A DNA stretch of 64,000 nt. It comes from Ignavibacteria bacterium (GTDB lineage: Bacteria > Bacteroidota > Ignavibacteria > Ch128b). Made by a program: the position numbers and the translations under genes. Positions 1 through 13,156 of the stretch are shown piece after piece. Under the pieces are notes generated by a model. That model had not been told where the DNA came from. It searched no databases and saw nothing but the letters and a program-made list of their open reading frames with translations. The first letter of the stretch is position 1. Every line of letters begins with the position of its first letter. The stretch covers positions 1 to 64,000 of the forward strand of contig VGVX01000001.1 of NCBI GenBank assembly GCA_016873845.1, given 5' to 3'.

Positions 1-1355
1 AATAGGGTGCTTATCCTTTTTAGATTTGGCTCCTAAAGAACTCATTTCTGATCGAACTAAATCAATATTTTTTTTGATTAACAGCTTGTGAGACTTGTTC
101 AGTCTTGAATAAAAAAATAAAATTAATATAAGTGAGAGAAGAACAATTAAGATAATGCCTATCAAAATACTTTGCTGAATTTCATAAGTTTTTAATTCCG
201 ATTTCGATTGTGACAATTCATCATCTGAAATTAATTTAAGTGCCTCAAAAGTCTTTCGGCGTTTTATGAGGGAGTCGTAGCTAATAATAACTTTATTGCC
301 AGCTGTCCAAGCATTCCTATAGTCACCAGTGGCAGCGTAATTGTCAGCTAAATATTTATAAATTGTTGTAGCAAGTTGAAATGAAAGTGGGTAGTGAAGT
401 ATTTCTTCTGCTTTTTTCAAGAAATAGATTGAAGAATCATACATCGACTTTGTGTAATAAAGCTTTCCTAATCGGACATAGATTTCTGTTATAGAGTCAG
501 GATATTTATAAATTGAATCAAATTTTTGTGCCTTTGAAATATATATCCATGAACTGTCATATTTTTTTTTGTAAAATAAAATTCTGAGAGAGTAGAATAT
601 AAATATACCATTCTTACAGAATCTGAAAAACCCATGATATTATTTTTATCGGCGAGCATATCATTTAATGCTTTAAGATAGTAGAATATTGCTTTATCGT
701 AATTTGAACGTTTACTTTCAATCAACCCAAAATTATTTGTTATAACAAATTTTCTCCATTCTTTCCAAGCTGCTAAGTCACCTCTCAATTTATATACTTC
801 CTTGAAGCAATATTCTGCCTTATCTAAAAGTCCTGCCACAAAATATATGTTTCCCAAATCGTGGAGCATATTAACTTCGTTTTTTTTATCGCCTAAAGTT
901 CTGAAAATATCTCTAGCTTTAAAAAGCAAAATGATCATAGAATCGTATTGAAGATTTTCTTTATAAATCTCACTTAAACGCCCATATGATTTTGCTTTCA
1001 ATAGCAAGTCATTCCGCTGCTCAGCTAAAAGAATTGAAGCTTTTGCATTGTTTTTCTGCTCCTCATATGAACCATATCTTGCATAAAACAGAAGCACATG
1101 GTTATAACAGTACAGGTCAGGGATTTTTTTTGTCAGATTTAATAATCTCTTTGCTTGTTTTTGAGCTATGACTGGATCAATGTCAGTGATTAAGAGGAGT
1201 ATGTTATCGAAAATTTCTTTTTGTTTATCCGGATCTTCGGTTTGGAGTTTTAAGATTAGTTCTTCCAAATCGGGTCGTGAGTGTATTGTGCCCGCTGATG
1301 TTAGAATAATCAGAACAATAATGATGCTGTATTTCAGACACGAAAACCGCAACAA
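1..1355 (-). pseudogene. TPR - membrane helix - AraC regulator, paralog 1; frameshifted and cut by the window edge
   Basis: The reading frame opens at 1355 with a hydrophobic signal segment and continues as TPR-like helical repeats matching the intact paralog at 8405-10228. It breaks at an A9 tract (T9 on the plus strand, 562-570) and, read on in that frame, stops at 489. One extra A restores a continuous frame to position 1 that matches the paralog without a gap: the rest of the TPR region, the junction TYEIQQSILIG, a membrane helix and the start of the cytoplasmic linker. The AraC DNA-binding domain would lie beyond the window. As read, the product is a truncated periplasmic TPR protein. 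A real mutation, a phase-variable tract, transcriptional slippage and a sequencing error all fit. A surface-sensor or regulatory role is inferred from the architecture of the family. Confidence 0.75.
562..570 (-). other. Poly-A9 tract at the frameshift in paralog 1
   Basis: Nine A residues on the minus strand follow a C inside a TPR helix. With nine the frame leaves the family alignment and stops 24 codons later. With ten, the residues TKKKYDSSW align to SKKAYYNTW of the intact paralog and the frame stays open to the window edge. Confidence 0.85.
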
Positions 1356-1678
1356 ATCTCTCCTGATGCTTATCGTAAATAATAGATTTACTCTATCAAT
1401 TTAGGTTAAAATGGAAACAATAGCAAAATGGCTCACTGAAAAATATTTGTTGATCTTTGCCCTGCGAAAGTATTATTAGGTTAAGGAAAGATTAGATCTT
1501 TAATACCGCAGAGAGCACGGTGTACACAGAGAAAATACTGAAGGGATTTAATGTAATAATTCGGCTAATCTTTTTGTGAAGTTTTTAATGAAGTTTGAAT
1601 GCCTTATGCCAGTATACTTCTTACCTTCAAAAATTCTCTTCTAAGATAGAATCAATTGTCGTTATGTCAATTTACTTC

Positions 1679-1702
1679 TGATAAAATTTATAAATTTTAT
1701 CA
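1679..1702. repeat. 24-bp perfect AT-rich palindrome
   Basis: The half-site TGATAAAATTTA is followed directly by its exact reverse complement, with no spacer. It lies between the divergent regulator and surface-protein genes. It could be an operator or a cruciform/terminator element. Being so AT-rich, chance is not excluded. Confidence 0.55.
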
Positions 1703-1735
1703 TTCACCAAACGAAAAATTATAAAAAAAACTTTG

Positions 1736-1752
1736 GAAATTTTAAAAATTTC
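1736..1752. repeat. 17-bp inverted repeat
   Basis: The arms GAAATTTT and AAAATTTC flank a single A. The site is 34 bases beyond the 24-bp palindrome, so the two may form one regulatory cluster. No function can be read from the sequence. Confidence 0.4.
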
Positions 1753-1789
1753 GAAACTTTTCGATTGATAATTAACAACTAAAAAAAAG

Positions 1790-2029
1790 TTGATAAGATT
1801 TATCATTCTTAACAACATCGTGACGTATTTTTACAAGGGCAAGATTATTTTCGCAGTAGAAAATGGTGAGAAAAAAACTGTGAGAAGCATCAATGTATTA
1901 AAAAAAACAATTCACAAATTTATCGAGGAAAAGCTCGGAAAACACTTCTCGTTGGAGAGCGTATTTATAATTCTATATATCATTCTTGCAATAATATTTA
2001 TTATCAACTTAATGGTGTCAATATTTTAA
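1790..2029 (+). CDS. Possible small membrane protein, unrecognised
   Basis: This 79-residue frame begins at a TTG with no clear ribosome-binding site. It has a charged middle rich in Lys and Glu and a hydrophobic C-terminal segment (about residues 56-77) that could be a tail-anchor helix. It resembles no family I know. It lies 36 bases upstream of the large surface-protein gene on the same strand and could be a short leader gene. The region is very AT-rich, which favours chance hydrophobic frames, so it may not be a gene. Confidence 0.25.
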   Translation: MIRFIILNNIVTYFYKGKIIFAVENGEKKTVRSINVLKKTIHKFIEEKLGKHFSLESVFIILYIILAIIFIINLMVSIF

Positions 2030-2065
2030 TTAACCAAATGTCTCATCAAAGATAGGAGAACAAAA

Positions 2066-5000
2066 ATGAAAAAATCTTTTGCGATATTCGTTATTCTCTG
2101 CATAACAATATTTGCTTTTACGGGTGAGTTGTATTCACAAGCAACACTTGAAACGGCTCAACCATTTTGTACTGCAGTCGGCGCTACGTACCCTGCAGGT
2201 GTAAATACCGGAACAGCACAACCGGGCCCGAACTATGGATGTTTGATTATGCGTCCAAATCCTGCATGGTATTATATGAAAATAGGTGTGGGAGGCTCTC
2301 TACAAATTACTGAAACAAATAGCGCTAACGTGGATATTGATTTTATTTTGTGGGGACCTTTTCCTAATCAAAGTCCAGCACCAACAGATTTAACAGCAGA
2401 AAAAATGATTGACTGTAGCTATCATCCTCAAGCAACCGAAATTATCGATTTGGGAAGCTCGAGTGTTGGAGAGTACTATATTTTACTTGTGACAAACTTT
2501 TCAAATTCGCCGACAAATATAACGCTTGCAAAAACAGGAGGGACTGGTGAAACAGACTGTTCAATTGTAAATCCTGCTCCACCAACTCCAGGATTAGCTT
2601 CACCAGGAAATGGTTCAACAAACCAACCACTGACTTTGAACCTATGCTGGGATGCATCAACCGGAGCAACAAGCTACGGTTTACAAGTTGCTACAGATGC
2701 AGGTTTTTCAAATTTGGTTTATAATCAAACAGGATTAGCTGGACTTTGTCAACAAGTCGGTCCGTTAAATACGAATACAACATTTTATTGGCGTGCAAAT
2801 GCAACAAATGCGAATGGTACAAGTGCATGGTCAGGCGGCTGGAGTTTTACTACGGTACCACCGGTACCTTCTGCACCAACCCTTGTTTCACCAGCTGATA
2901 ATGCAATTAATCAACCTCTCACGCTTACGTTGACATGGAATGCTTCTTCCGGTGCCACCAGTTATCGATTGCAAGTCGCCTCAGATGCCGGCTTTACTAA
3001 TTTAGTAGTTAATGAAGCAAATATAACAACTACAAGCAGGCAGGTCGGTCCACTAAATAATAGTATTCGATATTTCTGGCGAGTAAATGCAACCAATGCC
3101 GGAGGAACAAGTGCATATTCTTCGGTTCGGAGGTTCAGAGCACTTAATCCAGCTCCTGCAACATATCTGACAACTTCAGCCGGAGTGAGTACTTACTATG
3201 CAATGAACGGACCAAACATTACGGTCGATGGAGGTGTGACAGTCTCTGGCGGGAACTACGACGGTGCCATTGTATCAATAAATACTAACTTCACGAGCGC
3301 TGAGGATAGATTAATTTATCCAACCGTGCTTCATGAAATAACGGGAGATTATAATACTTCGACTGGTGTATTGACCTTCACTGGTAACGGTACTGGCGCA
3401 CAATATCAAGAAGTATTAAGATCTGTTCAGTATAAAAATATTAATGTACTGAATCCCAGTCAAGCAACCCGGCAAATAACTTTTCAAGTTGGAACTGCAA
3501 TATTTTATTCTGGCAGTGGACACTATTATAGGTATGTTCCTGCTTCTGCAATTCGTTGGGATGTGGCTAAGAATCAAGCAGATGTTTCTTACTTCTATGG
3601 CTTAGCAGGATATTTGACCACAATTACCTCAGCAGGAGAAAACAGTTTCATCCAACAAAAAATAAATGGTAACACTTGGATAGGAGGAACTTGCGATCCA
3701 GCTTTTGCACCTGGTGCATTTTGGCCACCACCTGGAATCACCACTGGTTCCATTTGGAAATGGGCTACCGGTCCAGAATATCTTGATAACTTAAGCTATA
3801 TTAATTGGGCACCGGGTGAACCAAATAATTCTGGGGGTGAAGCTCATTTACATTTATATTCGACCGGACTATGGAATGATTTTGCTATCGATAATCCCAA
3901 CATTTTAGGATATTTGATCGAGTATGGTGGACTTGCAGGAGATCCTACGGTAACTATTTCTGGGGATAAAAATTTAGCAGTATACATTATTCCTCCACCA
4001 ACACTACTTTCGCCAGCAAATAATTCCATTTATATGGAGGTTAATCAAAACCTAAGCTGGCAAGAAGTGCCAGGAGCGGAGTTGTATCAGATTCAACTTG
4101 CCGTTGATGAGAACTTTACGATAATTGTTCTTGACGATGCAACTGTTGGTGGTTTCTGCAAACAAGTTGGACCTTTAAATTTAGGAACAAAGTATTATTG
4201 GCGGGTACGTGCTCTGAGAGCGGGAGCTAGGAGTTTATGGTCAACAACATGGAACTTCACAACTCTTCCAACGGTACCACCGCAGCCGATATTAATTTTA
4301 CCTGAAAATAATTCGGTAGATAGACCAATAACACTGAATCTGAGCTGGAATCCCGCACCTAATGCACTTACATATAGATTACAAGTCGCAACAGATTCAA
4401 ACTTTAACAATCTAGTATTTAATGATTCTACTCTTACAGCAACAAACCATGACGTCGGACCTTTAAGTAATTTCACAAGATATTACTGGAGAGTTAACGC
4501 GAAGAGCTGCTGTGGAACAAGCGTTTGGTCACCAACTTGGACATACAGAACGATAGTTCCATTCCCAGTAGTTCCAACTGGGACTGTTACACCAACATCA
4601 GGTGCAATCAATCAACCAATCACACTGAACATAAGCTGGCAGCCAGTTCCATATGCAGAAACTTATCGGTTGCAAGTTTCGACAAGTAACACATTCGGTA
4701 CAACTGTATTCGATGATTCTACAATTACAACAACATCGAAACAAGTTGGGCCACTTGCAAATGATAAAACATATTATTGGCGTGTAAGAGCGAAAAACGT
4801 TGCTGGAACAGGTGCATATTCTACTATTAGTGTATTTACAACTATAGTTCCAATACCAGTGACCCCAAGCTTAGGTACACCGGCAAACAATGCAGTACGA
4901 CAGCCAATGACTATAACATTGACCTGGGCAGAAGTTCCTTATGCGGTGAAATATCGTTTGCAGGTTGCAACAGATTCATTATTCACAGTTGTTTCTGTGT

Positions 5001-5803
5001 TCTTGGATGATACAACTCTAACAACGAACTCACGTCAAGTAACACTACCAAGCTATGATACCAAGTACTTCTGGAGAGTAAATGCTAAAAACATCGCTGG
5101 TACAGGGACCTTTTCTTCTATTAGATCATTCAGAACTCTCGGACCAATTCCAACTGTATTTGACCTATCGAATCCACTTGAACACCATCGAATTGTAGTA
5201 CGTCAAGGTGATGGAACTCCGATTACATTCAAGTGGAGGAAATCCACATATGCTACAAAATACAGATGGAGATATGGTGTCCCGTACATTAATCCATGGT
5301 ATTTTGATATACTGTCGAATAGTAATGGCACCGATACACTCTTAACATTAACAGAAGGACAGTTGTATAATATTTGGGATTCGACCATGCTTCTTGGCTC
5401 GATTGATTCGTGTATTGGTCAGTGGGCAGTTTGGGCATTTAATGTGTATGGATTGGATTCAACACAATCGAATCAAACTTGGTACTTGAAGTTCGTATTG
5501 AGAAGAACAACCGGTTTTATTGATGGGTCAATCCCAACCGAATATAGCTTAGCTCAGAATTATCCGAATCCATTTAATCCATCTACTAAGCTCAGGTTTG
5601 GATTACCGCAAGAAAGTAATGTTACATTGACCATTTACAATATTCTTGGAGAGCAGGTCGATAAGTTGATTAATAATGATTTACTTAAGGCAGGATGGTA
5701 TGAATATGATTTCAATGCATCGAAACTGCCGAGTGGTAATTACATCTATCGAATAACTGCTGGTAATTTCACCCAAACGAAGAAGATGTCAATAATTAAA
5801 TAA
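2066..5803 (+). CDS. Large T9SS-exported surface protein with Fn3-like modules and a C-type-lectin-like domain
   Basis: This 1245-residue protein starts at an ATG preceded by GGAG. A signal peptide (about 1-25) is followed by an N-terminal domain of a kind found in Bacteroidota surface proteins (about 27-170). Two Fn3-like modules (about 176-362) and a spacer come next. A C-type-lectin-like domain (about 494-626) carries both calcium/sugar-site signatures, EPN at 585-587 and WND at 603-605. Four more Fn3-like modules (about 641-1028), each with the pattern YRLQV(A/S)..., follow. The last 90 residues, from YSLAQNYPNPFNP, are a type A T9SS sorting domain ending in Lys, so the protein should be exported and attached to the surface. 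The lectin-like domain suggests carbohydrate binding, probably mannose-type, by motif. It is flanked by the regulator paralogs, which may control it. Confidence 0.9.
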   Translation: MKKSFAIFVILCITIFAFTGELYSQATLETAQPFCTAVGATYPAGVNTGTAQPGPNYGCLIMRPNPAWYYMKIGVGGSLQITETNSANVDIDFILWGPFPNQSPAPTDLTAEKMIDCSYHPQATEIIDLGSSSVGEYYILLVTNFSNSPTNITLAKTGGTGETDCSIVNPAPPTPGLASPGNGSTNQPLTLNLCWDASTGATSYGLQVATDAGFSNLVYNQTGLAGLCQQVGPLNTNTTFYWRANATNANGTSAWSGGWSFTTVPPVPSAPTLVSPADNAINQPLTLTLTWNASSGATSYRLQVASDAGFTNLVVNEANITTTSRQVGPLNNSIRYFWRVNATNAGGTSAYSSVRRFRALNPAPATYLTTSAGVSTYYAMNGPNITVDGGVTVSGGNYDGAIVSINTNFTSAEDRLIYPTVLHEITGDYNTSTGVLTFTGNGTGAQYQEVLRSVQYKNINVLNPSQATRQITFQVGTAIFYSGSGHYYRYVPASAIRWDVAKNQADVSYFYGLAGYLTTITSAGENSFIQQKINGNTWIGGTCDPAFAPGAFWPPPGITTGSIWKWATGPEYLDNLSYINWAPGEPNNSGGEAHLHLYSTGLWNDFAIDNPNILGYLIEYGGLAGDPTVTISGDKNLAVYIIPPPTLLSPANNSIYMEVNQNLSWQEVPGAELYQIQLAVDENFTIIVLDDATVGGFCKQVGPLNLGTKYYWRVRALRAGARSLWSTTWNFTTLPTVPPQPILILPENNSVDRPITLNLSWNPAPNALTYRLQVATDSNFNNLVFNDSTLTATNHDVGPLSNFTRYYWRVNAKSCCGTSVWSPTWTYRTIVPFPVVPTGTVTPTSGAINQPITLNISWQPVPYAETYRLQVSTSNTFGTTVFDDSTITTTSKQVGPLANDKTYYWRVRAKNVAGTGAYSTISVFTTIVPIPVTPSLGTPANNAVRQPMTITLTWAEVPYAVKYRLQVATDSLFTVVSVFLDDTTLTTNSRQVTLPSYDTKYFWRVNAKNIAGTGTFSSIRSFRTLGPIPTVFDLSNPLEHHRIVVRQGDGTPITFKWRKSTYATKYRWRYGVPYINPWYFDILSNSNGTDTLLTLTEGQLYNIWDSTMLLGSIDSCIGQWAVWAFNVYGLDSTQSNQTWYLKFVLRRTTGFIDGSIPTEYSLAQNYPNPFNPSTKLRFGLPQESNVTLTIYNILGEQVDKLINNDLLKAGWYEYDFNASKLPSGNYIYRITAGNFTQTKKMSIIK

Positions 5804-5836
5804 GTTCTCACTTTTCACATTGCCATCTCGTAATGG

Positions 5837-5874
5837 AACCCAACTGGTGCCCACTAGTTGGGTTCTTCTTTTTA
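5837..5874 (+). terminator. Rho-independent terminator after the surface-protein gene
   Basis: A 13-bp stem (AACCCAACTGGTG pairing with CACTAGTTGGGTT, one G-T wobble) closes a two-base loop and is followed by CTTCTTTTT. It sits 33 bases after the stop codon, and may also serve the convergent minus-strand gene. Confidence 0.85.
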
Positions 5875-5909
5875 ATATCGAATCCAATTATTTAGTATAT
5901 AGATGATAA

Positions 5910-7712
5910 TTAAGTTTGTCTGTTAAGATTTTTTAAAAAAAAGGAAGGAGTCACGCCAGTATACTTTTTAAATGCGGAGATGAATGTTGTTCTATTGCTG
6001 AAGCCTACAGTATTCGCTATACCAGCAAGGTTGTAGATATCTACTTCGTGTTTTTGAGACAAAATCAACAGCGATTTTTTAATTCTTAGGTTATTAATAT
6101 AAGTATTAAAATGGACCCCATAGAATTGGTTTATTACTTTTGAAAGATAATTTCTATTTGTATTTAAAACTTTAGCGAGACCATCTAAGCTAAGATTTGG
6201 ATCCAAGAATAATTGCTTCTTCTGAATCACCTCTTCGAGGTGTGCAACTATTGCACTCATCTGCGCAGAGTCAGGTATTTCTTCATCTTGTATATATCGA
6301 TCCAGATGGAACTCTTCAAAGTTATATGGAATAGATTCAGCTGAGAATTCTTTAGCTTGATTTTTGATAAATGACTTTAGCTTGAATGTTTTGTTCTCAG
6401 AATGCATTAATTCAATATTTTTATTAATCAACAGCTTATAAGCATTCTTAAGTTTAAGATGTATTATTAAGATTAAAATCACCGACAAAATGACAATAGT
6501 AATTATACTTAGAAGAATGCTTTACCGAATTTCATAAGTTTTTATTTTCGATTCTGCACTTTCAAAGTAATCATCTGTAATTAATTGAATACCAGCAAAG
6601 ATGTTCTGCTGCTTATTTGTAGAATCAACTAGCAAAGAATATTTCTTATATGTCATTAGAGCATTTTTATAATCCCCTTTTGCAGTATACACTTGAGAAT
6701 AAAAGTCATATAAAATTCGTGCGATATTCAGGGGAATATTTTGGGAATTTAATCGCTCAGCTTTCCGCAGATAAGTCAATGATGAATCATATAATCCCTC
6801 ATTATAAAAAATCTTTCCCTTCAGAATGTAAAGATTTGTCATCATATCAACGCTCCCAACAGATAAGTTAGCAGAGATACCCTTATAATAATAGTACAGT
6901 GCTGTTTTGTAGTCTTTTTTTAAAATATACAAATCAGCAAGCTGAATATATGCATAAATAATCCGTGTAGTATCTATGATATACACTCCCGATTCCTGAT
7001 TTGATAATAATTCATTTATTGAAAAATTAAACCATGCAATTGATGAATCAAAACTATTTCTATGCTTATGTATAAAAGCCATATTATTAAGAATGACATA
7101 ATAACGCCAAGAATACCAGTCCGATAGATTACCCTTAATTCTAATTGCTTCTTTATAATATTTTTCTGCATTATCAAAGAGCCGTGCATGGAAATAAAGG
7201 TCACCAAGCATATGAAGCAGCGGAACTGTTTCAAACTCGAGGTTAATTTTTTTGAAAAGGTCTCTTGCCTTAAAAAGATAATGAACGGACGAATCGTATC
7301 GAAACTCTTGATGAAAAATTTCGCTTAAGACGAATAAAGATCGAGCCATAAGTAATTCATCTCGATCTTCGGAAGCAGTGGAATACAAACCATATACAAT
7401 TTTTTTTCTTTCTGTAAATGCACCAAATCGAGAGTAGAATAAAAGTACATTATTATAAAAATTCCGGCTACCAAATTTATTTGTTATTCTTAATAATCTT
7501 TCAGTTCGTTCCCTGCCAATTGAAGAATCCATTTTCGTAATAGAGATAAAAATTTTATCCAATAATTGAATTTGTTTTGAGGACTTTACTGTTTGAAACT
7601 CGCTTAATAAGCTATCGAACTCTGACTGAGCAATACTTAATGTACATAAGGAACATTGGAGAAAAAAAATAAAAATTACTTCATTAAATTTTCGACTCAA
7701 CGAAATCTCCAT
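5910..7712 (-). pseudogene. TPR - membrane helix - AraC regulator, paralog 2, interrupted by an in-frame stop
   Basis: The gene opens at 7712 with a signal peptide, then TPR-like repeats aligned to the intact paralog. It stops at TAA (6524-6522), where the other two copies have Gln (IQQS, IRQN; here IR-stop-S). The same frame then continues without a shift through the membrane helix (SILLSIITIVILSVILILII), a linker and a complete AraC-type HTH to the stop at 5910. Ignoring the stop gives about 600 residues, against 607 in the intact copy. A single C-to-T change explains it. As read, it would yield an unanchored periplasmic TPR protein. A TTG at 6488 lies inside the helix and is a poor restart. 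TAA excludes selenocysteine. Confidence 0.8.
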
Positions 7713-8404
7713 TACAAAAATAAATTAGACGATTCAGATTTTTCGTAAATTTATATCAGACTAATTTCAAAGTCAATTCTTGTATCTGAAATTCAAACAG
7801 TCGAATTTTATGTCCATTTTCTAAGAAAGTTCATTTCGTTCTGAAAATTTTAAGATACATTTTAACTCTACTAAGTTTACTAAACTTGTACTTCCCAAGT
7901 TAATATTTCAGATGCAGGCTATATTGAATTTAGTCGGAGTATAAAAACTAATCATGAATTTTTCATGAGCTGAAATTAAGAAAAACTTTTCGGTTATCAC
8001 TTCACAGTATAGCATTTATTGTATTTTCGACTATAACAGTAATAAAATCTTTACCCTAAAATTTACAGCTTTATATGCGGTAGATACTAAAAATAAATAT
8101 TCAGACTTCAGACCTTCTTAAGATTTTCAAACCTTAATAACTTTCTGAAATTCAAAAATATTACCCTATTCCAATCAGCTTTAACGACAGAATTAAATAA
8201 GGTTACTTTATTTGGAGATCGATGCTTGGTACTAAGATTCTGAAGTTACGCAAGCTTTGTCCAAAGGATCCTTCGGATTTTAAATTCCACAGACATTTTC
8301 CGTGAGAATTGAGTCAACTATCTCAATCAAACATAACTATCACAAAGTGTATTGAATATGAATTCATTTCAACATTACTCGTTTTTATATGTCTATTTTG
8401 GAAT
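7713..8404. other. Intergenic region between regulator paralogs 2 and 3
   Basis: About 690 AT-rich bases hold no convincing gene on either strand. A small hairpin (TCATGAA / TTCATGA, 7952-7968) is the only structure noticed. The promoter of paralog 2 should lie just beyond 7712. Confidence 0.5.
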
Positions 8405-10228
8405 TTATGCGTCGGGCAGGTTTTTAATAAAATATGATGGGGTAACACCAGTATATTTTTTAAATGCTGAGAGAAATGTTATTCTGTTTGTAAAGCCTAC
8501 TTCCCTTGCTATTCCTTCGAGGTTGAAGACTTCAGTATTTTGTCGGTTTGAAAGGATATGTATTGCTCTTCTGATCCTTAAATTATTCAGGTAAGTATTA
8601 AAGTGCACACCATGAACCTGATTTATTACTTTAGAAAGATAATTTCTGTTTGTTCCGAGTAATTGTGCAAGAGTGTCTAAATTTAGATTTGCATCCAAGA
8701 ATAATTGCTTTTTATACATGACTTCTTCCAAATGTGAGTCTATTTGCTGAAGCATCACAGGATCAAGCGGTTCCTGATTATATTCGCTGGTTAAGTGATT
8801 ATGATTCTTTGAACTATTAATCATAGTTTGATTTTTCGACTCTTTAACTTGTTTATCTAGCTGCGATTTTATTTTTAATGATTTATTCTCTGCCTGCAAT
8901 AATTCAAGGTTTTTTCTTATCAATAATTTATGAGCTCCGTTAAGTCTGAGATAGAGCAATAAAGTCAAAATCATAGAAAGCAAAACAAGCAAAATAATTC
9001 CTAAATAAACATTCTGTCTGATTTCAAAAGATTTTATTTTCGATTCCGATTGTGCAATTTGATCTTCGGTGATTAATTTTATTGCCTCAAATGTTTTTCG
9101 CCGCTTCAATATTGAATCATAGTTGACCATTACTTTATCGCTCGCAATCCAAGCACTTTTATAATCTTTCAGTGCGGCGTAATTATCAGCTAAATATTTA
9201 TTGATTGTTGTCGAGAGTTGAAATACGCTTGGGCTTTCAATCAAACTCTCAGCTTTTTTCAAAAAATAAATCGAAGAATCGTGTATCGATTTATGAAAGT
9301 AAAACATACCTTTGATTAAAAATATTTGCACTAGAGATGACGGATCGTTGTAATTTGATTCTAATTTGTGAGCCGTATTAATATGCACCCAAGTATTATA
9401 ATAAGCTTTTTTACTTAGGTAGAATCGAGCTAAGTTTGTGTGCGAATATATTAATCTCGATGTGTCTGAATAAGACATGATAAATTTTTTATCTGATAGC
9501 ATTTCGTCGAGTGCTTTTTTAAAGTAATAAATTGCTTTATCGTAGTTTTTTCTTTCTCTTTCAATCAGCCCGAAATTATTCGTGATTACAAATTTTCGCC
9601 ATAAAAACCACTGACTTGGATCGCCCTTTAATTTTAGAACTTCATTATAATAATATTCCGCCTTGTCAAACAAACTTGCTACGAAATAGATATCTCCCAA
9701 TTTTTGTAGCAGAGTTACTTCCTCATCTAGATTTTTTGTATTCCTAAAAATATCTCGAGCTTTTAAAATCATGACGATAACCGAATCATATCTCACCTCT
9801 TCTTGGTATATCTCGCTCAAGCTGATAAATGCTTTTGCTTTAAGATTTAAATCATCTCGATCATCGGCAAGATTTATTGAAGCACGTAATTTATTCTTTC
9901 TTTCATCAATAGTACCAAATCTTGTTGAAAATAAGAGTACAATGTTATAACAATATAGGTCACTAAACTTTACGGTTAATTTTAGCAATCTTTCAGTTTG
10001 TTTTTCAGCAATAGATGGTTCTAAGTCAGATAATATCGTAAGTAGTTTATCTACTATTTCTTTTTGATTTGTCGAACTTTCAAACGTGAGAGTATCAAAT
10101 AAAAATTCATATTCGGATTGCCCAAGAACCGAAGAAGTAAACAATAACGCAGTCATGAGTAAAACAACTGTACTCTTAAAATATTTTCTCCTCAAGTTCG
10201 CTTCTCTTGATGGACAATTAAAATACAT
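8405..10228 (-). CDS. Membrane-spanning TPR - AraC family transcriptional regulator, intact paralog 3
   Basis: This 607-residue protein has an N-terminal signal/anchor segment (about 18-36) and a TPR-like repeat region (about 45-395). A single membrane helix (about 402-424) follows, then a basic linker and a C-terminal AraC-type HTH (about 510-605) with motifs NRNYLSKVINQ and GFTNRITFLSAFKKYTGVTPSYF. The layout implies a periplasmic sensor joined to a cytoplasmic DNA-binding output, a one-component design common in Bacteroidota. It is the only undamaged member of the local trio. Likely targets are the neighbouring surface-protein gene or its own promoter. On the minus strand a TATTTTTG box (10262-10255) fits the Bacteroidota -7 element, but the -33 element is weak. 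Confidence 0.88.
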   Translation of the reverse strand: MYFNCPSREANLRRKYFKSTVVLLMTALLFTSSVLGQSEYEFLFDTLTFESSTNQKEIVDKLLTILSDLEPSIAEKQTERLLKLTVKFSDLYCYNIVLLFSTRFGTIDERKNKLRASINLADDRDDLNLKAKAFISLSEIYQEEVRYDSVIVMILKARDIFRNTKNLDEEVTLLQKLGDIYFVASLFDKAEYYYNEVLKLKGDPSQWFLWRKFVITNNFGLIERERKNYDKAIYYFKKALDEMLSDKKFIMSYSDTSRLIYSHTNLARFYLSKKAYYNTWVHINTAHKLESNYNDPSSLVQIFLIKGMFYFHKSIHDSSIYFLKKAESLIESPSVFQLSTTINKYLADNYAALKDYKSAWIASDKVMVNYDSILKRRKTFEAIKLITEDQIAQSESKIKSFEIRQNVYLGIILLVLLSMILTLLLYLRLNGAHKLLIRKNLELLQAENKSLKIKSQLDKQVKESKNQTMINSSKNHNHLTSEYNQEPLDPVMLQQIDSHLEEVMYKKQLFLDANLNLDTLAQLLGTNRNYLSKVINQVHGVHFNTYLNNLRIRRAIHILSNRQNTEVFNLEGIAREVGFTNRITFLSAFKKYTGVTPSYFIKNLPDA

Positions 10229-10677
10229 AATACACCATCCTCAACTGCTTTAGACAAAAATAACAATTAATTAATAATTTAACCATCTGTTTTAGATGAC
10301 AGTCAGGATTAATTTGATTATTCTTTAGCGGTAACATATCAGGAAGTGTAAAAGTTTCATAGTTCTGTGTAGCGTCAGCTTCTGCTACTACTCTATAAAA
10401 TGAAATTCAAATTGTGAAGCGGAGTTTTGTATTTCGATATTGCGATTACTAAACGTTAGAATATAAACAACTCCTAAATGCTTGCTTTCATACACATCGA
10501 ATATCACTACTGTCCAAGATACGATCAAATAAAAACCTGTAACTATATAGTAAATAAAGTGTTATAAGGAAAAATAATCGTAATCGATTTGAACTTGAAA
10601 ATTAACTCTCATAACATAACCTTCCCTCGCAGGCGATTGCAAATTCCGGTTTTCTTGATGTATCCATCCGTTGACGG

Positions 10678-10806
10678 ATATTTTCTCGACCTTAGTAACC
10701 ACAATTACCATAGTGACTACGACCTTATTACCTTATGTTGGAACAATAAGCTAATAAGGGTGAAAATGATTTCTCTTTGTTTGTGTCACTAAGGTAAGAG
10801 AGATAT
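10678..10806. repeat. Nested inverted-repeat element (MITE-like or structured RNA candidate)
   Basis: The outer arms (10678-10704 and 10781-10806) are imperfect inverted repeats of about 26 bases centred on CCTTAGT / ACTAAGG. Inside lies a strong hairpin at 10723-10759: CCTTATTA pairs with TAATAAGG, then CTTAT with ATAAG, then a short loop. The element could be a remnant of a small mobile element or a structured transcript. No target-site duplication was recognised. Confidence 0.45.
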
Positions 10807-10988
10807 TTATTATGCAGCATTTTTCTACAGATTTTATGTATATCAATTTTATAAAAAGCTCTATTTTACAGCTTATGAATGATGTTGACTGCGAATCCAA
10901 AATCTAATATTGTTCTACCGATTGAATTTATTTGACTTATATTTGGACAGTAATGATCAAATATTTATGTTAAAAAAATTACTTGTTG

Positions 10989-11020
10989 CTTGAACTCCAG
11001 TCTTTTGATTTATATATTTG
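10989..11020 (+). promoter_or_regulatory. Candidate Bacteroidota-type promoter for the OPT transporter gene
   Basis: CTTG (10989-10992), a 20-base spacer and TATATTTG (11013-11020) match the TTTG / TAnnTTTG pattern of Bacteroidota sigma factors. A start near 11027 would leave a leader of about 120 bases. The assignment rests on the motif alone. Confidence 0.3.
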
Positions 11021-11149: not shown

Positions 11150-13156
11150 ATGTCTGAACAAAAGAAATTTGTTCCATTCGTCTCGCCAGAAACAAGCATG
11201 GCTGAATTTACTGTGCGTGCACTTATCATTGGTTTGATAATGTGTGTGGTTCTCGGTGCAGCCAATGCCTATCTTGGCTTAAAAGCAGGTATGACAATCG
11301 CCGCAACTTATCCGGCTGCGGTCATCGGAATGGCGCTCTTAAAAATCATGAAGGGAAGCATCCTCGAAGAGAATTTTGCCAGAACAGTAGGTTCAATAGG
11401 GGAATCAGTAGCTGCTGGTGCAATCTTCACGCTTCCTGCATTTTTCATTGCTGGTATATGGCCAGAGTTTGCAACTACCGGACATTATCTTGAATCATCT
11501 GCCATCATGATCGCTGGCGGTGTACTCGGCATTATGTTCGTTGCATTACTTAGAAGAGTAATGGTCGAAGATATCGAATTGCCATTTCCAGAATCTGTTG
11601 CGGCTGGTGAAATTCATAAAGCAGGTCGTGCAGGTGGAACAGGAGCAAAATTCTTGTTCGGAGCTATGGGAATTGGTGCTTTAATTCAAACTCTTGGACA
11701 ATTAAAATTCTTTGCTACAAGCTGGGAAAAATTCGTTTCATTTTCTAAAGCGACAATTAGTTTGAAAGCTACCGGTACAGTTAATGCTCAAAGTGGTATG
11801 TTATTAAGCTCGCCAGGGGTTAGCCCTGCATACATCGGAGTCGGTTATATTATTGGACCGAAATTAGCATCACTAAACTTTAGCGGTGGACTTTTAGCTT
11901 GGGGATTATTCGTACCAATAATTACTTATTTTCTTGGACCGAGCTTGTTCCCGGAATCATCCGGTGCAACTGAAGAGAGTTGGATAGGAATGGCAAACAA
12001 CGTTTGGAGATTTATTGTCCGTCCAATAGCCATCGGCGGGATGTTAACTGGTGCAGGTTTTACACTTTTCAGAATGCGTAAAAGCTTAATAACAGGAATT
12101 AAAAGATCAATCGGTGACGTAAAGAAAGCTGCAACCGGCGAACATGTTGCCATCAGAACTGAACAAGATATTAGTTTCAAATGGGTGACGATCGGAATTC
12201 TTGGTGCTTCAGTTGCAACGTTTTTCATTTACAACTATTTCGCTCAAGATGTAGTGGCAGCTTTGGTTGCTACACTCGTAATGGTGATTGCAGGATTTTT
12301 CTTTGCGGCAGTTTCGGGTTATTTAGTGGGAATTATTGGTTCGAGTAACAATCCAATTAGCGGTTTGACTTTATCTACTCTTTTAGTTGCTGCATTGTTA
12401 ATGGTTGCGCTTGGAATGACCGGTTCTACTGGTGTTGCGGCTGTTCTTGGAGTTGCGGCGGTTGTTTGCGTAGCTGCGGCGGTTGCAGGTGAAATGCTGC
12501 AGGACTTAAAAGTCGGGCACATTCTTGGCGGCACTCCATGGAAGATGCAGGTTGGCGATATTATCGGTGTGGTGCTTGCTGCGGTAGTTATGTTCCTTCC
12601 ATTAGTAATTTTGCACGAAGGTGATATTAAATCTGGCGGAACTGGATTCGGAGGCAAAGCTCTTCCAGCACCCCAAGCAAGTCTTATGGCGCTGCTTTCG
12701 CAAGGTATTGTCGGCGGTGAAATGGCTTGGCCATTGATTATCGTTGGTATGATTATGGGATTTGGATTTGTGTTAATGCAAGTTAAAAGTCCAATGCTGG
12801 TTTCTGTTGGTATGTATTTACCCCTTGAAACAACCTTTGCTATTTTTATAGGTGGATTAATAAAAGGTACAGTCGAGAAATTCAATGAAAAGCGAAAACA
12901 CAACGAGGCACAAAAAGCACGAGTAGAAAATACAGGTGTTTTACTTGCGGCTGGTTTAATCGCCGGTGAAGCCTTGATAGGCCTTGTATTTGCAGGATTT
13001 GCTTTCTTTGAAGTGGGATTATTCTCTATATTCGATACACCATCATTCATTGTCAGTCTGTTTGTATTCGCATTCATTGCTTGGATATTGATTAGAATTC
13101 CGATAAAGAATGCAGGCAGAGCAGATGAACCTGCGCCGCCCTCTGCGGTTATGTAA
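11150..13156 (+). CDS. OPT family oligopeptide transporter
   Basis: This 668-residue polytopic inner-membrane protein has roughly 14-16 hydrophobic segments. The N-terminus is family-typical, with NAYLGLKAGMTIAATYPAAV near residues 39-58. The OPT family imports oligopeptides, or in some members metal chelates, driven by protons. The ATG follows a strong AAAGGAGAG site. Downstream genes encode two peptidases and an MFS carrier, which favours peptide uptake for nutrition here. The gene has its own long upstream region and is followed by a hairpin, so it may be transcribed alone. The long opposite-strand frame (12319-13077) is a shadow. Confidence 0.9.
   Translation: MSEQKKFVPFVSPETSMAEFTVRALIIGLIMCVVLGAANAYLGLKAGMTIAATYPAAVIGMALLKIMKGSILEENFARTVGSIGESVAAGAIFTLPAFFIAGIWPEFATTGHYLESSAIMIAGGVLGIMFVALLRRVMVEDIELPFPESVAAGEIHKAGRAGGTGAKFLFGAMGIGALIQTLGQLKFFATSWEKFVSFSKATISLKATGTVNAQSGMLLSSPGVSPAYIGVGYIIGPKLASLNFSGGLLAWGLFVPIITYFLGPSLFPESSGATEESWIGMANNVWRFIVRPIAIGGMLTGAGFTLFRMRKSLITGIKRSIGDVKKAATGEHVAIRTEQDISFKWVTIGILGASVATFFIYNYFAQDVVAALVATLVMVIAGFFFAAVSGYLVGIIGSSNNPISGLTLSTLLVAALLMVALGMTGSTGVAAVLGVAAVVCVAAAVAGEMLQDLKVGHILGGTPWKMQVGDIIGVVLAAVVMFLPLVILHEGDIKSGGTGFGGKALPAPQASLMALLSQGIVGGEMAWPLIIVGMIMGFGFVLMQVKSPMLVSVGMYLPLETTFAIFIGGLIKGTVEKFNEKRKHNEAQKARVENTGVLLAAGLIAGEALIGLVFAGFAFFEVGLFSIFDTPSFIVSLFVFAFIAWILIRIPIKNAGRADEPAPPSAVM

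Follow-up and report, generated by a model that had tools for sequence, protein, structure and literature searches.

The left end of the window (the whole analysed stretch of 64,000 nucleotides) lies within an island of about 11.5 kb that we read, at a probability of roughly 0.68, as a dedicated module of regulator, operator and surface protein, in which redundant regulator copies would decay while one intact copy, copy 3, would serve the operator in trans. The linkage of operator, regulator and target appears to be undescribed, the decay itself being ordinary, and the literature search returned nothing on TPR-AraC regulators or on their control of T9SS proteins. The features discussed below are collected in the table.

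The first-pass annotation had described three minus-strand genes in the window, each combining a TPR region, a transmembrane helix and an AraC HTH, and the analyses based on Pfam, hydrophobicity and alignment agreed with it, giving these genes the order signal/anchor segment, TPR region, single hydrophobic helix and AraC HTH. In copy 3, for which Pfam matches to TPR and HTH_18 were obtained, the membrane helix comprises residues 403–425 approximately and the HTH residues 520–602, the latter above the Pfam cut-offs. This copy carries the double HTH of the AraC/XylS type (PF12833 and PF00165, 54.6 and 36.7 bits), and TPR region, membrane helix and AraC domain are joined in one chain that has no kinase. 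The same two families were recognised above the cut-off in the part of copy 2 lying 3′ of its stop (54.5 and 38.7 bits), and the HTH of copy 1, which is encoded on contig C99, scored 40.2 bits. In the AlphaFold model of copy 3 (mean pLDDT 72.6, built from a two-sequence alignment), the TPR superhelix matches solved TPR folds in the PDB.

Copy 3 is 42% identical to copy 2 over about 600 aa and 50–67% identical to copy 1, depending on the segment. The matches of the paralogues to copy 3 had E values from 1e-43 to 1e-138, and similarity by chance is not an issue. The earlier view that only copy 3 is intact holds within the window; elsewhere in the genome there is a fourth paralogue, copy 4, which is dispersed (contig C36), could be aligned along its full length and is likewise intact.

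The source assembly is a draft of 162 contigs (2.98 Mb), and copy 1 is cut short in the window because the first base of the latter is also the first base of a contig. Its linker and HTH sit outside the window, on C99, the start of which overlaps the window start in reverse complement by exactly 127 bp. Such an overlap suggests de Bruijn assembly of short reads, and the adjacency of the two contigs is backed by the pdxJ–OPT synteny in three relatives. The frameshift noticed previously in copy 1 was found again, in a homopolymer run, and since two more frameshifts are present on C99, this copy, with several independent disabling lesions, is classified as a pseudogene. Two of its three frameshifts lie in A/T runs. 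The in-frame TAA of copy 2 was also confirmed; it is a nonsense transition (CAA>TAA) in the last codon ahead of the membrane helix, well inside the contig, and the 203 codons past it remain open. Translation ending there would yield a TPR protein that is soluble in the periplasm, with the AraC part no longer linked to it. Both lesions had been thought to part the TPR region from the DNA-binding domain, which is true of the stop in copy 2. The window frameshift of copy 1 falls inside the TPR region, so only the stop of copy 2 stands at the TPR/membrane boundary.

Table. Positions of the regulator copies, their lesions, the predicted operator sites and neighbouring features (window coordinates unless a contig or locus is named).
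Feature	Position	Strand	Description
Island part in window	1..10989	.	Left edge ~C99:628, just past pdxJ
Copy 1	1..1370, continuing on contig C99 (L032:128-~560)	-	Regulator pseudogene; window holds TPR part and membrane helix
First copy 1 frameshift	562..570	-	T9 run (A9 in mRNA), inside TPR region
Second copy 1 frameshift	L032 ~230-245 (C99)		Linker, outside any homopolymer
Third copy 1 frameshift	L032 ~536-545 (C99)		Near C-terminus
Predicted operator site 1	1680..1701	.	Palindrome GATAAAATTTATAAATTTTATC; 24-bp perfect inverted repeat 1679-1702
Predicted operator site 2	1792..1813	.	GATAAGATTTATCATTCTTAAC
Candidate small single-TM protein	1880..2029	+	49 aa from GTG 1880; at most 79 aa from TTG 1790
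Surface-protein gene	2066..5803	+	1245 aa, Ig/fn3 repeats, T9SS C-terminal sorting domain
Intrinsic-terminator-like hairpin	5835..5866	+	3′ of surface gene; consensus match only
Copy 2	5910..7712	-	TPR-TM-AraC regulator, single in-frame stop
Copy 2 stop	6522..6524	-	TAA replacing CAA; Gln in copies 1, 3 and 4
Copy 3	8405..10228	-	Intact, 607 aa; signal/anchor, periplasmic TPR superhelix, TM ~406-425, AraC HTH
OPT promoter-like TTG-N20-TATATTTG	10990..11020	+	Aligned with G001, island right edge
OPT-family oligopeptide transporter	11150..13156	+	Right island flank; 94% identical in G001

The phylogenetic tree showed copies 1 and 3 as sisters (100/99) and copies 1–3 as one group (92/91), on long branches, with copy 2 placed next to copies 1 and 3 and copy 4 forming a clade with a homologue from another genome, G156. 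Pairwise dN/dS values among copies 1–3 were 0.1–0.4 where dS was finite, and dS was near saturation, which indicates that the reading frames were retained long after the duplication. For the AraC domains downstream of the lesions, on which an estimate of selection had been proposed earlier, the amount of change in both damaged copies was compared with that in copy 3. The HTH of copy 2 showed no excess change relative to that of copy 3 (two outgroups, 6:8 and 4:9), which means that its stop arose recently or that the part below it still has a use. For the HTH of copy 1 the corresponding counts were 14:6 and 9:3 (binomial p = 0.12 and 0.15, not significant), and a faster change than in copy 3 is suggestive only.

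Decay after duplication, one of the two readings put forward by the first-pass annotation, is supported for copy 1, whose three frameshifts are separate and include one that does not lie in a homopolymer, and is also what most probably befell copy 2, which carries one nonsense transition. The relatives do not carry the same lesions; no homologue shares those of copy 1 or copy 2. The broken copies most likely represent the ordinary decay of redundant regulators, and an assembly error is the less likely cause. The latter reading, according to which copies 1 and 2 are intact and a short-read draft shows lesions in them only through errors of assembly or consensus, we consider unlikely. False pseudogenes can arise from assembly errors (PMC11017572), and the end of a contig divides copy 1 at a k = 127 overlap, a place at which the sequence may be corrupted by coverage or by a mixture of strains; two of its frameshifts are in A/T runs, the bin contains a 16.4-kb stretch twice at 99.89% identity, and a local error at the contig end may have affected this copy. 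However, three frameshifts in 587 codons of copy 1 compare with none in the alignment of neighbouring genes with G001, a genome of the same genus, over approximately 6,776 codons, and the probability that three random lesions all land in copy 1 is 5e-4. Moreover, the frameshift outside homopolymers, the lean of the copy 1 HTH towards faster change and the nature of the copy 2 TAA, a substitution well within the contig, all speak against such errors.

That copy 2 is a working split gene, giving a secreted TPR sensor and a separately translated functional AraC protein, seems very unlikely. Its stop is placed precisely at the TPR/membrane border, the downstream codons are under normal constraint (an unaccelerated HTH scoring practically as that of copy 3), and a TTG start occurs 34 bp past the stop, but this start would halve the membrane helix, no RNA structure was found at the stop (z = −0.18), and there is no split homologue among the intact ones. 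Programmed readthrough or frameshifting was rejected on the same lack of RNA structure and on the two additional lesions of copy 1. The other reading of the first-pass annotation, a switchable array in which reversible lesions toggle the copies and vary the control of the surface protein, did not find support and is highly improbable. Several alternative regulators do lie near one target with two operator sites, and the A9 run is able to slip; however, this is the only one of the four lesions located in a long homopolymer, the gene concerned has two more, and copy 2 was changed by a point nonsense mutation, not by slippage, so that neither copy has the properties of a phase-variable (contingency) gene. 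Among about 20 homologues, an internal stop was seen in only one contig-edge fragment. Recurrent internal stops in homologues were rejected, as the stops in L088, L094 and L103 fall upstream of the start. The reading preferred here remains decay of redundant copies.

Comparison of the locus with related genomes, which had been recommended, showed that the cluster is missing from three relatives of the same family, so that it constitutes an island between pdxJ and the OPT transporter gene. In G001, about 220 bp stand in place of the island, and pdxJ and the OPT gene adjoin, 408 bp apart; similarity to this genome stops about 12 bp past pdxJ and returns at window position ~10989, just before the OPT promoter. 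In G002 and G003, the two genes are separated by about 0.9–1.1 kb, an interval which we take to be a DUF2400-like gene. Given the closeness of pdxJ and OPT in these relatives, the cluster was most simply gained in this genome. Likewise, no regulator homologues were detected at the profile threshold in five genomes of the same genus or family, and no close relatives were found in the search of genome contigs. Short repeats of the CACAGAG/CTGAGAGCAC type, read by eye, flank copy 1 (window ~1505–1540 and L032 ~595–635) and are possibly small mobile repeats at the island edge.

The surface-protein gene is divergent from copy 1 and is likely the target of the regulator. The homologue profile, made from copies 3 and 4 and from copy 2 with its stop read through, revealed full-length regulator homologues in several families of the class, across which such modules are patchy. 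A T9SS-tailed gene lies divergently upstream of 10 of 25 regulator genes, compared with 0 of 20 control AraC genes that the same search had supplied (Fisher p = 0.001). Of the 21 regulators that have a neighbour upstream, about 16 face a gene for a secreted protein (signal-peptide-like starts, assessed by eye). None of ten more remote homologues, from the wider phylum, had a T9SS-tailed divergent neighbour. The top matches of the spacers around copies 2 and 3 were self-matches and included no remnants of lost target genes. The genome itself encodes at least 120 T9SS-tailed genes as well as SprA.

Several further observations concern the genes for exported proteins. The ORF of the candidate small single-TM protein ends 36 bp 5′ of the surface gene, and a comparable 47-aa ORF is present at the copy 4 module on C36 (L056:14912–15055, minus strand), also just upstream of a T9SS gene. 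The two small ORFs are alike at p of about 5e-4 in segment shuffles (0.06 for the N-terminal half alone), and no convincing third copy was found in this genome or in 40 relatives. The stretch present twice in the bin, shared by contigs C18 (L163) and C51 (L164), is rich in T9SS-tailed genes, and its near-identity suggests that the bin contains mixed, redundant strains or that the stretch was duplicated recently. A contig-edge regulator homologue with an internal TGA (L107:1–612, G279:C15) is located beside a tandem secreted-protein family.

A 22-bp palindrome, GATAARATTNNNNAATYTTATC, was found in the spacers of such regulators, and two predicted operator sites of this type sit between copy 1 and the surface gene. 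The length of the 24-bp perfect palindrome in this spacer was matched in 0 of 1000 shuffles, and a similar sequence is present in the corresponding spacer of a second genome. A search of 919 kb of loci for GATAARATTTATAAATYTTATC, allowing four mismatches or fewer, gave 11 sites, compared with about 0.7 expected under a Markov model, and all 11 are beside TPR-TM-AraC regulators; the 13 best-scoring sites of a symmetric PWM in the same loci also all adjoin such regulators. When the PWM was built leaving one locus out, the window sites at 1680 and 1792 ranked 1 and 2 of 63,973 positions. The scan of the own genome, which took in 1.26 Mb of 2.98 Mb, gave no other strong site, the next best lying inside a coding gene. 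The sites are kept across eight genomes, and in L109, which has a tandem gene order, the site precedes a gene for an outer-membrane-type exported protein. The earlier proposal that the set acts on the neighbouring surface gene is much strengthened by the conserved divergent linkage together with this conserved predicted operator. Paired sites 41 bp apart, about four helical turns, occur in two genomes (L103:9194–9256 and L089:6894–6956).

The recognition helices are nearly identical in copies 1–3 and different in copy 4, the spacer of which has no operator site. No strong site was found in the spacer of copy 3 itself, which faces the OPT gene and not the surface gene. No ten-mers were common to the four spacers of this genome, and the motif emerged only from comparing spacers across genomes; a sigma-70 promoter scan gave no excess over shuffles. 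AraC proteins often bind direct repeats, whereas the predicted operator is a palindrome. A recognisable site is absent from about half of the homologous spacers, which means that the motif is confined to a subset or has diverged elsewhere. This absence, together with the island nature of the cluster and the patchiness of the modules in the class, would also fit a palindrome belonging to another factor that acts at the same promoters, with the regulator and surface gene linked by shared island transfer and not by regulation. We find that reading distinctly unlikely, as no strong site lies away from the regulators in either of the scans, and the sites recur in eight genomes, 5′ of an exported-protein gene even where the gene order is tandem.

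Under the dedicated-module reading, each regulator would be an inner-membrane one-component transcription factor, the periplasmic TPR superhelix of which would sense a ligand, perhaps a peptide or an exported protein, and the single membrane helix of which would relay the signal to the cytoplasmic AraC domain. This domain would bind the palindrome in the spacer, probably as a dimer, and would switch the surface gene, probably as an activator. Local duplication would have produced copies 1–3, and their function would have been kept for long before copy 1 was lost and copy 2 recently stopped. With copy 1 a pseudogene and copy 2 interrupted, the strongest candidate for serving both operator sites is copy 3; this intact copy, the closest to copy 1, most likely does so in trans. 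More tentatively, the palindrome and the regulators may constitute a family of membrane-bound switches specific to the class, each of them dedicated to a single exported surface protein, in which the TPR domain would sense its own cargo or the export of that cargo, thereby coupling surface-protein transcription to T9SS export; the small membrane protein may take part in this genome. The conserved predicted operator and its linkage to surface genes are the valuable part of these results and are directly testable, and the predicted operator, the membrane-bound regulator and the target together offer a testable handle on one dedicated circuit by which a T9SS bacterium would choose among its some 130 exported surface proteins.

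Among known systems, the nearest working analogue is FimS/FimR of Porphyromonas gingivalis, where FimS, an inner-membrane sensor with a periplasmic TPR domain, controls surface fimbriae (PMC11053733); a periplasmic TPR sensor is tied to a surface structure there, as proposed here, and the TPR part of copy 2 matched the FimS model weakly (15.2 bits). However, FimS is a histidine kinase acting via FimR, whereas the regulators described here have no kinase and carry sensor and DNA-binding domain in one fused protein. The Bacteroides hybrid two-component systems likewise combine, within a single inner-membrane protein, a sensor with a part that regulates transcription (PMC11253607). Unlike them, copy 3 has a TPR sensor and gave no histidine kinase or receiver Pfam match, and its module adjoins a T9SS surface-protein gene in place of polysaccharide-utilisation genes. 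The output domain of the hybrid systems is of the AraC type. The YSIRK-adjacent surface antigen regulators (TIGR04094) are also of AraC type and are named for the adjoining surface antigen, but the score against this family was 39.4 bits, over the HTH region only, compared with a cut-off of 200 bits. The HTH of copy 3 places it with the AraC/XylS family (PF12833, PF00165), from which the regulators described here differ in that this domain is fused via a membrane helix to a periplasmic TPR domain.
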